A stretch of DNA of 64,000 nucleotides, taken from Enterocytospora artemiae (taxonomy: Eukaryota; Microsporidia). Below the pieces are notes generated by a model, which worked only from the letters and a program-made list of their open reading frames with translations, did not search any database and had not been told where the DNA came from. Location of the stretch: NCBI GenBank assembly GCA_038659295.1, contig JASNGC010000003.1, positions 620,001 through 684,000 of the forward strand, read 5' to 3'. Both the position numbers and the translations under genes were made by a program. This document shows positions 8,569 to 53,217 of this stretch, piece by piece (position 1 is the first letter of the stretch; each line of letters opens with the position of its first letter).

Positions 8569-10332
8569 ATGGTGGATTCCATTGAGGATGATGTCTTCTT
8601 TACGGATTCCTGTGCAGATTCTTTTGTAAACTTGGAATCGGAGCTCTTTGATAGCAAAATGGAAGTAAATGATACATCCAATAATCTTTTCCAACACTAT
8701 GACAGACCAGATGCTAATCTAAAGGATAATGAGAAGAAAATCAGTAATCTCAGTAGTAGTTTTACAGACACACTCTGTAGTTATTCTTTTTCAGATGAAA
8801 AGTCCGATCTGCTAATTAGCTGTTCCCTAGATGAAGATTGTGCTATTTTTGATGATTCATCGGATCGTAATCTACTAGTTTCGGCACAGCCAGGAAGAAA
8901 TCAAACCACAATATCAGTAGAAATGAATAAAAAAGAAGAAATTACTGAGAATATTGATAAAAAAACATCTTCGCACGGCTATGAATTGTTTGAAGGATAT
9001 TCAAGTGGAGTTTGTAGTTCTTTAGAGATGAAAAAGAAAAATCTATCCGAGAATGGGTTGGTTAAGGATAATCAGCCATCTATTGATCTCGATCAATTAA
9101 ATTATGGCAGTTCATATGGTGCACAGAATGATTTTTTTACAGGGTTTAAGACTGGCAGTAACAAACCTGTTAAGGTACAGGAAAGGACCATACAATCTGT
9201 TCTAGAAAAAGCCCAGATTGAGGATGGTATGCTTGGCCAAAGTGCTTTCTTTGTGAGTGAAGAAGATGCCAGAGATAATTTGAGAAAAAATATATTGATA
9301 TCAAAAGAATCAACCCTGTGTGATCGCAAAGTGAGGAAAAAGTGTATTTTGGCTGAGGTGGATATTAATTCAAAGAGAATGAAGTACCAGCAACAGGGTT
9401 TTAGAAGGGTTGACCCACTTGAAGCAGTGATATCTGATATGACTTCACAAAAAAGTTGTTCGGAGTTGAATGTGGGAATGCCCCAAACAACCATGAATTC
9501 CCTTTCAAAGAATACTGTTGGCAATAGATCGCATGCTTATAATGGTGAGAAGTCCTTTAAATCAGAGTTTGAAGTGCATGCATTGCTTCATGGTAGAGAA
9601 TCCGCAGTATCAGAAGTTATTGGTGTCCAGGATAATAAGAGTCAAGCTTCCATACCCACAGACATGAGCCATGAAATTCCAAGACACTATTCGGCTAATC
9701 ATAATTATCCTCAGAATGGATGTATTTATTCGGAAATAGCAAAGGAGGCTTCCATGAAAATTATTTTCACGAACATTTGTAAAATATATAAGAATGAATC
9801 CAAAGAATGGGTTTTGAATCATTTTAAGTGGTGTTGGATGCATTTTGTTTTGAACCCCGTCCAAAACGAGCCCAACTATTCCTTGCTCTGGAATGAGAAA
9901 TTGAAAGGCCATAATGTAAATGGCGATTTATCTAAAGCCCCTGAATGCTCAAAAGTGAAGGAAACTCATCTGAATAGTGCACGTTATGAACCATCAAATC
10001 TAATTCCCCCTGAAAACTCGCTGGAATATGGCATACAGGTATTGATGAGATATAGATATATGAATGAAAGATCAGTTCTGAAAAATATTGTAGAGTTTGA
10101 TGACATTGCATACAGATTTATGGTTCTGGGAATTTTAGAAATACATCGAGAGCACATCGTTGTCTATGACGGGTATTATAGCCTAAAGGTGAAGATTGAT
10201 CAGTTTATCTTCGAGCTTTTGAAAGACAAGCACATGGGACAAAAGATATACGTGTTCGGATCGGAACTACTAATTGATAAGCCTATGGGAATTCTAGAAG
10301 CCAAAGATCAAGTTGTCTTGGGACTTAACTAA
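8569..10332 (+). CDS. BRCA2: BRCA2-family recombination mediator, N-terminal part (ends at in-frame TAA)
   Basis: 587 residues up to TAA at 10330-10332. A single BRC-type repeat lies at about residues 190-216 (FFTGFKTGSNKPVKVQ then a helix ending LEKAQ), matching the Rad51-binding consensus with phenylalanine, GK-like turn, V-x-V and a following amphipathic helix. From residue 412 the BRCA2 helical domain begins (EWVLNHFKW), continuing through the RYRYMNERSVLKNI block into OB fold 1, whose end (GQKIYVFGSELL) matches BRCA2. The stop falls where family members continue from OB1 to OB2, and the same frame carries on downstream. The family loads Rad51 on RPA-coated ssDNA. The remaining N-terminal region is acidic and disordered. 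Confidence 0.85.
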   Translation: MVDSIEDDVFFTDSCADSFVNLESELFDSKMEVNDTSNNLFQHYDRPDANLKDNEKKISNLSSSFTDTLCSYSFSDEKSDLLISCSLDEDCAIFDDSSDRNLLVSAQPGRNQTTISVEMNKKEEITENIDKKTSSHGYELFEGYSSGVCSSLEMKKKNLSENGLVKDNQPSIDLDQLNYGSSYGAQNDFFTGFKTGSNKPVKVQERTIQSVLEKAQIEDGMLGQSAFFVSEEDARDNLRKNILISKESTLCDRKVRKKCILAEVDINSKRMKYQQQGFRRVDPLEAVISDMTSQKSCSELNVGMPQTTMNSLSKNTVGNRSHAYNGEKSFKSEFEVHALLHGRESAVSEVIGVQDNKSQASIPTDMSHEIPRHYSANHNYPQNGCIYSEIAKEASMKIIFTNICKIYKNESKEWVLNHFKWCWMHFVLNPVQNEPNYSLLWNEKLKGHNVNGDLSKAPECSKVKETHLNSARYEPSNLIPPENSLEYGIQVLMRYRYMNERSVLKNIVEFDDIAYRFMVLGILEIHREHIVVYDGYYSLKVKIDQFIFELLKDKHMGQKIYVFGSELLIDKPMGILEAKDQVVLGLN

Positions 10333-10782
10333 AATGGAGTTCGTCTATGCCATGAAAATGGCACGAAGTTAGGATATCGAAAAAAGGTATCCTTTCTGAA
10401 TAAAATTCGAAATGTCAGGATTGATGGGTCAACTGTAAGCTGCTTGATTTTTACAGTTGATAAAATTATTGAGGACCAATATCTTGTTAGAGTTGGGAAT
10501 TACAGTAAGCAAGTAAAAGATGTCGAGTTGGAGATTGAAAACATTTATGCGATGGCTAGTGACAGAACCACACCGATAAAACCTGAAGATTTTACCATCA
10601 GGAGGTATTTGAAAGTATTGATTTCGGATGATTCTGGTGAGTGTTTATTGACTTGGTGGGATCATCCAGAACATGTAAAGTGTGGAGAGTGCTATAAGAT
10701 GATTTATTTAACTCCAATTAGATCACACAAGGGGCTTTATCTTACCACAAGCAAAAAAACATACTTTGAGATTGTTAAATAA
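10333..10782 (+). CDS. BRCA2: BRCA2-family protein, in-frame continuation (OB2/OB3 region)
   Basis: This is the same reading frame as the preceding 587-residue ORF, resumed directly after its TAA and closed by TAA at 10780-10782. It encodes 149 residues. It starts with a segment ending GTKLGY, the equivalent of the KLGF that precedes OB2 in BRCA2, and finishes with an OB fold (LKVLISDDSGECLLTWW and a final YLTTSKKTYFE) that matches OB3. The tower insertion appears to be missing. The first in-frame ATG is only at 10552, so it is unlikely to be an independent gene. Readthrough, a sequencing error, an allelic nonsense change or decay are all possible. Confidence 0.75.
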   Translation, partial: NGVRLCHENGTKLGYRKKVSFLNKIRNVRIDGSTVSCLIFTVDKIIEDQYLVRVGNYSKQVKDVELEIENIYAMASDRTTPIKPEDFTIRRYLKVLISDDSGECLLTWWDHPEHVKCGECYKMIYLTPIRSHKGLYLTTSKKTYFEIVK

Positions 10783-50949: not shown

Positions 50950-52428
50950 TTATTCCCACTCTACATTTATTCCCTCCTTTCCATCGATTTCTACACCATG
51001 CTTTCCAAAGAAGTCTCTCATGGCCTGGATTACATTTCCATTCCTTTTGTTCATCCTCAGGCCATTCAAATAGATCAGAGAGCCGGAAAATACCGGCACA
51101 TACAAGTTGTTCTTTACAGAATACTCCACAACATTCCTCAAAGAGTCGAAATTTTCCGAGTAAACCCTACAAAACAGATCGGATATCTCCAAAAAAGAAC
51201 AATTGTGTGACTTCCCAACATCCTCATGGCCACTTCTGCTTTTACATGCTTCAATACTCATCTTGGATATCTCAGACAGTATTTTACTTCTTATGATGCA
51301 TCCACCGCTCCATATTCTGCAGATGCTTTCGATGGTGTAGTCCCACCTGTACTCGTTTTTGGCCATCAGAAGCAAATTTGATCCCTGAACAAACGATACA
51401 ATTTTGGACAAATAGAAGGCTGACTCCAGATCAGAAATAGAAACCTTACCGGTAGTTCCATCTGCAATATGGCCGTGTGTCTGCAGTTTCTCCACAAACA
51501 ACTCTCTTTTCTGCTTTTCTGCCGATAAAAATCGTCCGAGAACCGACTCCGCCATCAGGTTAGTGCATACATTCAGCTCGACGGCTGTGTTTATACAGAA
51601 CTTACCCGTCCCCTTCTGCATTGCCCTATCATTGATCCTATCCACAACCAATGTGCCGTCCCCATAGGCCTTACGGAATATTTTGGAGCATGCTTCCACC
51701 AAATAACTAGAACTCCTGCCGGTGTTCCATTCACAAAACATATCTGCAACATCTGTGTCCCCACACATGCTACGAGCTATTGTCACAACCTCCTGAAGAA
51801 GCTGCATCTCACAGTACTCTATTCCATTGTGAACTGTTTTTACAAAATGTCCTGCACCATTAGAACCCAACCATCCACAACATCTAAAGGTCCTTTGACC
51901 AGAATCGTCTACTGTTGTGGCACTTATGCTCTCCAATACTTCCCTTATCCTTCCATACACTCCCTCTTCACAGCCAACCATCATTGACGGTCCGTTTCTT
52001 GCTCCAACCTCTCCACCTGAAATCCCACACCCCACAAAATTCCTGTATTCCGTGCTTCTCCTGATGGTGTCTTTGAAATTGCTGTTTCCCCCATCAATGA
52101 CAATATCAGAATCAGTTAGAAAGGGGCGGATGCTGGAAAGTATATGGTCAACAACAGACTCTGGAACCATTACAAAAATACACGTGTAGAAAGAGTCACC
52201 GGATTCTGTAGCACCAGACATTTCAGTGGATTTCTCTCTGCTGTGCTGTTGGAACAACGATTCAAAGGTACGATGTGCCACTATTCCATATTGTTCCAGG
52301 TTCTCGGCTTTGCTGAAAGTCCTATTCTGGACATGGACAGCATATCCTTTGTCATGCAAGTTCAGTGCCAAGGCTGAGCCCATAACTCCCATTCCAATCA
52401 CAGCGACATTGTGAGAGGTTCTATTCAT
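50950..52428 (-). CDS. GND1: 6-phosphogluconate dehydrogenase
   Basis: 492 residues, the normal length. The Rossmann NADP motif is GMGVMGSALALN near residues 12-23, then the VIDGGNSNF block, the active-site signature GISGGEVGARNGPSMM near 135, the catalytic HFVKTVHNGIEYCEMQ near 192, and the QKGTGKFCIN block near 275. It converts 6-phosphogluconate to ribulose 5-phosphate with NADPH in the pentose phosphate pathway. The ATG at 52428 is directly preceded by CCC; the upstream open frame shows no homology. Confidence 0.95.
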   Translation of the reverse strand: MNRTSHNVAVIGMGVMGSALALNLHDKGYAVHVQNRTFSKAENLEQYGIVAHRTFESLFQQHSREKSTEMSGATESGDSFYTCIFVMVPESVVDHILSSIRPFLTDSDIVIDGGNSNFKDTIRRSTEYRNFVGCGISGGEVGARNGPSMMVGCEEGVYGRIREVLESISATTVDDSGQRTFRCCGWLGSNGAGHFVKTVHNGIEYCEMQLLQEVVTIARSMCGDTDVADMFCEWNTGRSSSYLVEACSKIFRKAYGDGTLVVDRINDRAMQKGTGKFCINTAVELNVCTNLMAESVLGRFLSAEKQKRELFVEKLQTHGHIADGTTGKVSISDLESAFYLSKIVSFVQGSNLLLMAKNEYRWDYTIESICRIWSGGCIIRSKILSEISKMSIEACKSRSGHEDVGKSHNCSFLEISDLFCRVYSENFDSLRNVVEYSVKNNLYVPVFSGSLIYLNGLRMNKRNGNVIQAMRDFFGKHGVEIDGKEGINVEWE

Positions 52429-52734
52429 GGGTTGGAAAAAACAAATAAAATAACTAGTCGTAGGAATACACAAAATTTCCCACCACCATACTAGTAGCTC
52501 CAATGACAGGTAGATATTGAGCAAGGAGGTTCTCTTCATCACTCTGTGAATTCTCCCCAACACGGGTTTAGTGGGTTGCCCGATGCTGCTGTATATTTGT
52601 GTCACACAATATTTGCTTTCAGCCTGCCATTTACTTCCGAAGACTTCACTCGTATTATCTACAAAATCCAGTGAGTAATGTTTAAATTTTTGAAAAATTT
52701 TTATCTTGTGTTTGAAGTTTTGTGAGCCCCAAGA
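52429..52734. other. Divergent promoter of 6PGD and RPL21
   Basis: 306 bp shared 5' region. The plus-strand side carries the AAATTT and CCCC signals of RPL21, and the minus-strand side has CCC abutting the 6PGD ATG. Confidence 0.4.
52684..52734 (+). promoter_or_regulatory. AAATTT-type element plus CCCC upstream of RPL21
   Basis: AAATTTTTGAAAAATTTTTA at 52684-52703, then CCCC at 52727-52730, four bases before the ATG. The element is nearly palindromic and matches the RPL18 and RPS9 upstream regions. Confidence 0.65.
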
Positions 52735-53217
52735 ATGCGCTCGAATGGTTACAGAAGAGGCACTCGTACGCTTTTCAGAAAGGACTTCAAGAAGAGGGGG
52801 ATGCCAAACCCCACGAAGGTGCTGCAGCCATTCAAGATGGGAGATCTGGTAGATTGTAAGGTTGATCCGAGTGTTGTCAAGGGGATGCCCCACAAGTACT
52901 ATCACGGCCAGACCGGTAAGGTATTCAATCTGAATCCAAGATCTGTTGGGGTTATATTCTACAGGAAGGTTGGGCACAAATACATCGAGAGGACAGTGCA
53001 TGCCAGGATTGAGCATCTGCATCTTTCGAAGAGTGATTTGGACACCAAAACAAGATATGCAGAACATCAGAGGAGGGTGTCTGAGGCCAGAGAGGCAGGC
53101 GACAAGGCGACTGTTGTGAAAAGACAGCCTGCTGGACCCAGAGCAAGTTTTACTATTAGTAAGAGCAACAATATACCAGTAGAGGTTGGATTTAAGGCGT
53201 ACAATCCAGTATTTTAA
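52735..53217 (+). CDS. RPL21: Ribosomal protein eL21
   Basis: 160 residues. It starts MRSNGYRRGTRTLFRKDF and has the diagnostic KGMPHKYYHGQTGKVFN block, IERTVHARIEHLHLSKS near residue 85, and a basic C-terminal third. Size fits eukaryotic L21. TAATAAAATAATTT follows the stop as a poly(A) signal. Confidence 0.95.
   Translation: MRSNGYRRGTRTLFRKDFKKRGMPNPTKVLQPFKMGDLVDCKVDPSVVKGMPHKYYHGQTGKVFNLNPRSVGVIFYRKVGHKYIERTVHARIEHLHLSKSDLDTKTRYAEHQRRVSEAREAGDKATVVKRQPAGPRASFTISKSNNIPVEVGFKAYNPVF

Follow-up and report, generated by a model that had tools for sequence, protein, structure and literature searches.

A single in-frame stop codon near the end of OB1 in the BRCA2-family gene of the microsporidian Enterocytospora artemiae

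The window analyzed here, a stretch of 64,000 nucleotides from Enterocytospora artemiae (positions 620001 to 684000 of contig C3), carries a BRCA2-family gene that is split in two by one in-frame TAA. The best explanation, to which we give a probability of about 0.85, is a constrained BRCA2 gene with one nonsense codon near the end of its OB1 domain, caused by a single-base change, whether a young nonsense allele or a consensus error. Such a change would have turned a sense codon of a constrained gene into TAA; this single-base origin is something that we infer and do not see directly. Judged from the sequence, a young nonsense allele in the sequenced isolate would be close to an even bet, and an error of the consensus at the stop is a serious, if tentative, possibility.

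The first part of the gene starts at ATG 8569 and ends after 587 codons at TAA 10330-10332. The same frame is open for 149 further codons past this stop, to TAA 10780-10782, and the first in-frame ATG beyond the internal stop is at 10552 (Table 1). A preliminary description of this DNA had given the same coordinates, lengths, and frame, all of which proved correct on re-reading. The split is real and confirmed not to be due to chance. Among 119 gene-like open reading frames (ORFs) in 264 kb of the chromosome, the open run after the stop has a median of 10 codons; the 149 codons of the window gene are the longest, followed by 125 and 115. Seven ORFs have post-stop runs of at least 65 codons, and only that of the window gene scores as coding (15.2 versus -0.1 to -28.5). 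Run length and coding score among the 119 ORFs thus rule out a chance open run. A scan of the same 264 kb (~9% of the genome, 119 gene-like ORFs) for same-frame splits with at least 60 codons and a coding score on both sides, frameshifts lying outside its scope, passes the window gene as the sole split pair.

Table 1. Features of the interrupted BRCA2-family gene (positions within the window)
Feature	Position	Strand	Basis
BRCA2-family gene, first part: 587 codons and in-frame TAA	8569..10332	+	Frame reading; Pfam BRCA-2_OB1, 40.9 bits
BRC-repeat-like motif, residues 189-203, presumed RAD51-binding site	9133..9177	+	PF00634, E 0.02, 14.8 bits, cut-off 20.3
48-residue insertion, residues 434-481, in helical region; without counterpart in 6 of 6 relatives compared	9868..10011	+	Alignment
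OB1 domain, stop near its end	10072..10380	+	PF09103 positions 1-122 of 123, 57.6 bits, one TAA inside
In-frame TAA, next base A	10330..10332	+	Frame reading; sample of long-ORF terminators
Continuation, 149 codons: OB1 tail and OB2-like region; C-terminal end as in relatives	10333..10779	+	Alignments with relatives
Predicted RNA hairpin core, GAAA loop, 15 nt after stop	10348..10363	+	Extends to 10340-10367 in 40-nt fold
Second predicted RNA hairpin	10371..10393	+	RNA folding
TAA matching the C-terminal end of the family	10780..10782	+	Frame reading; alignment with relatives

The BRCA2 OB1 domain is present in the genome (PF09103, 57.6 bits in a genome search, cut-off 25.6). In Pfam searches of the protein, OB1 before the stop alone (residues 502-586) covers profile positions 1 to 105 of 123 with 40.9 bits; with the stop read as X, the match covers positions 1 to 122 with 54.5 bits, the continuation raising it by 13.6 bits. 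Since the match extends to profile position 122 across the stop, the stop lies inside OB1 and not between two domains. The earlier proposal of a single BRCA2-family protein broken by one stop is borne out by this match and by 16 of 16 relatives that are continuous at the site, and its placing of the domains needs revision: the stop sits within OB1 near its end, not between OB1 and OB2, and the 149 residues comprise the OB1 tail and what reads as OB2 with a short tower, not OB2/OB3. Solved BRCA2-DSS1 structures (1MJE, 1MIU, and 1IYJ) are matched at E ~1e-6 by a profile built from six intact relatives, and the match extends past the stop column but only into the beginning of OB2; what follows, up to the end of the protein, is probably the remainder of OB2 plus a short tower. 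Compared with these structures, the window protein is far shorter, and OB3 and the long tower seem to be missing from it. In passages of a paper on Naganishia (PMC10684384), OB3 is reported missing in fungal BRCA2, which fits an OB2-like end as the last part of the protein.

The separate pieces are less informative. Taken alone, the 149-residue piece has no Pfam match at E 0.01, no PDB match at E 1, and no protein match in a search with only 4 candidates, and the 587-residue piece has no BRCA2 match in PDB, with four chance matches to another protein at E 0.25-0.27. The helical (DSS1-binding) domain has no Pfam match at E 1; the region itself is conserved in relatives. A model of the relative P0002 has 1IYJ and 1MIU as best Foldseek matches with TM-scores of only 0.14-0.17, and it lends weak support because its confidence is low (mean pLDDT 48). 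In the N-terminal part, the BRC repeat profile PF00634 scores 14.8 bits in the joined protein, under its cut-off of 20.3, and G192, F193, and T195 of the motif are invariant in the window protein and six relatives. By eye, the 48-residue insertion at 9868-10011 has no clear intron borders.

No second intact copy was found in the 3.0-Mb assembly (3,015,070 bases, 5 contigs) with either of two queries: the OB1 profile has one match, with one TAA inside, and an intact relative retrieves only the window gene, in two pieces. The gene is one ordinary BRCA2-family gene, single-copy as far as found. Elsewhere in the window, a long minus-strand ORF at 50950-53067, 6-phosphogluconate dehydrogenase-like, overlaps a plus-strand ORF at 52735-53217, ribosomal protein L21-like (both names were read off the sequence); the minus-strand ORF probably has a noncoding 5' extension.

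Two protein searches (6 hits, then 10 more, with only the 7995 candidates sharing most words scored in the second) yielded 16 distinct relatives, including proteins named from Pancytospora philotis, Nucleospora cyclopteri, and Nematocida. At the stop column, all 16 have a sense residue, aromatic in 12 and Gln or Glu in none, with no alignment gap there, and 145 to 167 residues follow it, compared to 149 in the window. The absence of Gln and Glu from this column leaves the earlier guess of CAA or GAA as the original codon unsupported. The preliminary description had also proposed looking for an uninterrupted copy in relatives, and all 16 found in the predicted-protein database run through the site; a homolog ending at the same codon, which it had named as the contrary case, is seen in 0 of the 16, nor does a piece ending there occur among the search matches. 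Because predicted proteins have no internal stops by construction, an interrupted relative could appear in this database only as a shorter piece, and because P0004 and P0005 are near-identical, the 16 relatives are not 16 independent tests. P. philotis PAPHI01_1796 and N. cyclopteri NUSPORA_01666 ("hypothetical protein" at source) share with the window gene the OB1 domain, the register through the stop column, and the C-terminal end. The window gene differs from its microsporidian BRCA2-family relatives in the TAA near the end of OB1 and in the 48-residue insertion before OB1, the latter judged against six of them.

In a tree of the DNA-binding region, the window protein groups with the Nucleospora protein (ultrafast bootstrap 99). 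This nearest relative (P0010 from N. cyclopteri, 314 aa) has its predicted start at the DNA-binding region and lacks the BRC part; this may reflect how the start codon was called, a contig that is incomplete, or loss of N-terminal sequence. A microsporidian small-subunit (SSU) rRNA model has a full-length match five times in the genome and also matches 9 of 14 prokaryote controls, making the protein relatives the better evidence for the microsporidian group. By these relatives, the host appears to be a related microsporidian, kin to Nucleospora. Four of the SSU rRNA matches (C1:9500, C2:8039, C3:9425, and C4:27291) lie on the minus strand less than 28 kb from the contig start, and the fifth (C1:783561) is on the plus strand. 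Their placement hints at subtelomeric rDNA and near-complete chromosomes; C3, at 814,690, is the sole contig whose length was checked.

Sequence conservation is equal on the two sides of the stop. In the comparison with six relatives, the window protein has the shared residue at 34 of 39 invariant columns ahead of the stop and at 30 of 34 beyond it, with mean identities of 0.43 and 0.45. With 15 relatives, the counts are 24 of 26 and 14 of 15; this comparison covers 143 of the 192 residues at 396-587 and 147 of the 149 after the stop, counts columns filled in at least 14 of 17 rows, and leaves out the Nematocida protein, which was kept in the tree. The terminal branch of the window protein measures 0.61 before the stop and 0.49 after. 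The continuation has a coding score of 0.10 bits per codon (median of training slices, 0.13), and the five other frames over it have negative scores and 6 to 18 stops each. There is no second stop in its 447 nt. Approximately 4.8% of neutral changes in the continuation would create a stop (transition bias of 2), and the lack of a further one bounds the neutral period to ~0.03 (P 0.5) or 0.14 (P 0.05) substitutions per site. With conservation equal on both sides, no decay can be seen, and the stop, if real, must have arisen very recently. These comparisons suggest that, until very recently, the gene was under normal protein constraint over the whole DNA-binding region.

Long-standing decay of the gene is accordingly very improbable. 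Certain microsporidian lineages have repair repertoires among the smallest, according to parts of one source (PMC12134460), and such reduction would suit decay; in those same parts, recombination is held likely conserved and BRCA2 goes unmentioned. The 48-residue insertion and two one-residue insertions also distinguish the window protein from six relatives; the one-residue insertion at residue 598 is unique among the 17 proteins, and the other is common to at least two relatives. Against decay stand the single in-frame stop, the retained coding score, and the equal constraint. Neither further lesions nor relaxed constraint, the marks of a decayed pseudogene, was found when looked for. Early decay, attractive in the preliminary description, is therefore not visible: there is neither a second stop nor extra divergence after the first, and RAD51 and RAD52 are open. 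The only form of decay that fits is a stop too young to have left a trace. Among the recombination partners, the RAD51 family has one match in the genome (an open frame of 356 aa without a stop), and RAD52 has one, also without a stop. The Spo11-type profile PF04406 (TP6A_N) has no match in the genome, 4 of 14 controls being matched, and DSS1 has none in the genome or anywhere else searched, making that search uninformative.

A further possibility is that the 587-residue product is a working truncated BRCA2, fixed in the lineage, that consists of the RAD51-binding part, the helical region, and an incomplete OB1. There is some precedent: as described in sections of one study (PMC3240595), human BRCA2 fusions without the DNA-binding domain can function when they bind PALB2. 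The same sections describe fusions without the PALB2 site as needing an intact DNA-binding domain, the stop of the window gene cuts into OB1, and all 16 relatives have the part that would be lost, which shows no faster divergence in the window. We consider a fixed truncation improbable.

Another reading would place the TAA in a short intron removed by splicing. Prp8 is present, with an open frame of 1562 codons, and splicing may therefore exist. However, all 10 in-frame GT-AG intervals of 18 to 200 nt around the stop would also remove the conserved L586, N589, and more; none of them has a donor resembling GTAAGT, the intron donor consensus; and the relatives align without a gap at the stop column. 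Removing the stop would delete conserved OB1 residues, and the intron reading, very improbable on this evidence, is rejected.

The stop could instead be subject to programmed readthrough, whereby ribosomes sometimes decode TAA, aided by RNA hairpins after the stop, and make both a short and a full-length protein. The conserved, coding continuation suits this reading, and its sole special support is RNA structure just after the stop. Two predicted hairpins, 10348-10363 and 10371-10393, account for most of the post-stop folding. None of the 16 relatives has a residue aligned with residue 598, whose codon belongs to the right arm of the first hairpin, and the palindrome may therefore have arisen by a small templated insertion. 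Over 60 to 80 nt after the stop, folding is stronger than in synonymous permutations (z of -3.4 to -3.5; 0 to 0.3% of 300 reach the value) and in codon-usage resamples (z of -3.0 to -3.7; 0 to 0.7%). The 70-nt fold is matched by 0.4% of 3000 internal coding windows, and its value is reached at 1 of 119 ORF ends, the window ORF included. Stem-loops after the stop raise readthrough in Drosophila, as given in portions of one source (PMC13170385). The window gene shares with Drosophila headcase, a readthrough gene, a coding frame conserved after the stop and predicted RNA structure just behind it.

Several observations weigh against readthrough. The fold lengths were picked after a first fold had been seen. 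At 50 nt (p 0.10, 0.08) and at 120 nt (p 0.05, 0.09) the signal is weak, at 150 nt it is strong again, and at 130 nt it is unremarkable (z of -1.87; matched by 12% of 1500 internal windows and 3 of 119 ORF ends). The first hairpin pairs differently at different fold lengths, and a stretch at 10615 in the same gene folds equally strongly. TAA is the least leaky stop codon, as stated in portions of the source on Drosophila (PMC13170385). In contrast to headcase, the window stop has no counterpart in relatives (0 of 16), has the usual terminator context, and is known here from sequence alone. Of 76 long ORFs, 50 terminate in TAA, and the next base is A in 32 of these, the window ORF included, making TAA-A the usual terminator. 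Two eRF1-type genes were found, one of which (L010) carries NIKS, YxCxxxF, and GGQ, the stop-recognition and release motifs of eRF1, so that TAA should be recognized. A reassigned genetic code is ruled out by the use of TAA in those 50 ORFs and by the ordinary motifs of this eRF1-like protein. Readthrough, raised in the preliminary description, is not shown: stop, context, and release factor appear ordinary, and no relative found ends at the codon. We regard readthrough as unlikely. In its fullest form, a shade less probable, the TAA would be real, fixed, and regularly read through, stimulated by RNA structure at ~10340-10393, as a lineage-specific recoding that arose after the split from Nucleospora; in that case, two forms would come from the gene, a short one that binds RAD51 and a full-length one that binds DNA. 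The preferred single-base change leaves the structured RNA behind the stop to be put down to chance. Among the papers listed on microsporidian BRCA2/RAD51, microsporidian stop-codon readthrough, and BRCA2 readthrough, no title or abstract opening describes such a case.

Within the single-base reading, the two origins can be set against the expected number of errors. A consensus of QV 50 would be expected to contain 0.07 error-made stops within the scanned ORFs and ~0.8 genome-wide, and one of QV 40 would contain 0.7 and 7.8. With ~0.8 to 7.8 such stops expected per genome at these two qualities, a consensus error and a natural nonsense allele are both plausible. Genome-wide, no stop occurs inside the 70 family matches listed (25 kinase, 25 DEAD, and 20 AAA); these sweeps see stops only within the matched stretch, several of the entries are pieces of a single gene, and 19 of 34 AAA candidates were scored. 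The low interruption rate elsewhere argues mildly against a poor consensus, and the absence of any second lesion makes a fixed null slightly less likely. Just past the window, two of the kinase matches (C3:684171 and C3:685865) have near-equal scores over the same profile range and lie 1.7 kb apart, which looks like a tandem duplication.

Overall, the exciting readings of this gene are not supported, and it is an ordinary gene. A consensus error at the stop would be a caution for anyone counting gene losses, and only the unlikely readthrough case would interest widely. If the stop is real, the product ends at 587 residues and lacks OB2 as well as the end of OB1; the DNA- and DSS1-binding module would probably be lost, and RAD52 would presumably be left as the other mediator. 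As a real allele, the stop would show BRCA2 loss at its very beginning, in a group whose repair repertoires are small and while RAD51 and RAD52 are still open, and would provide a natural test of how far a microsporidian manages without a BRCA2 mediator.
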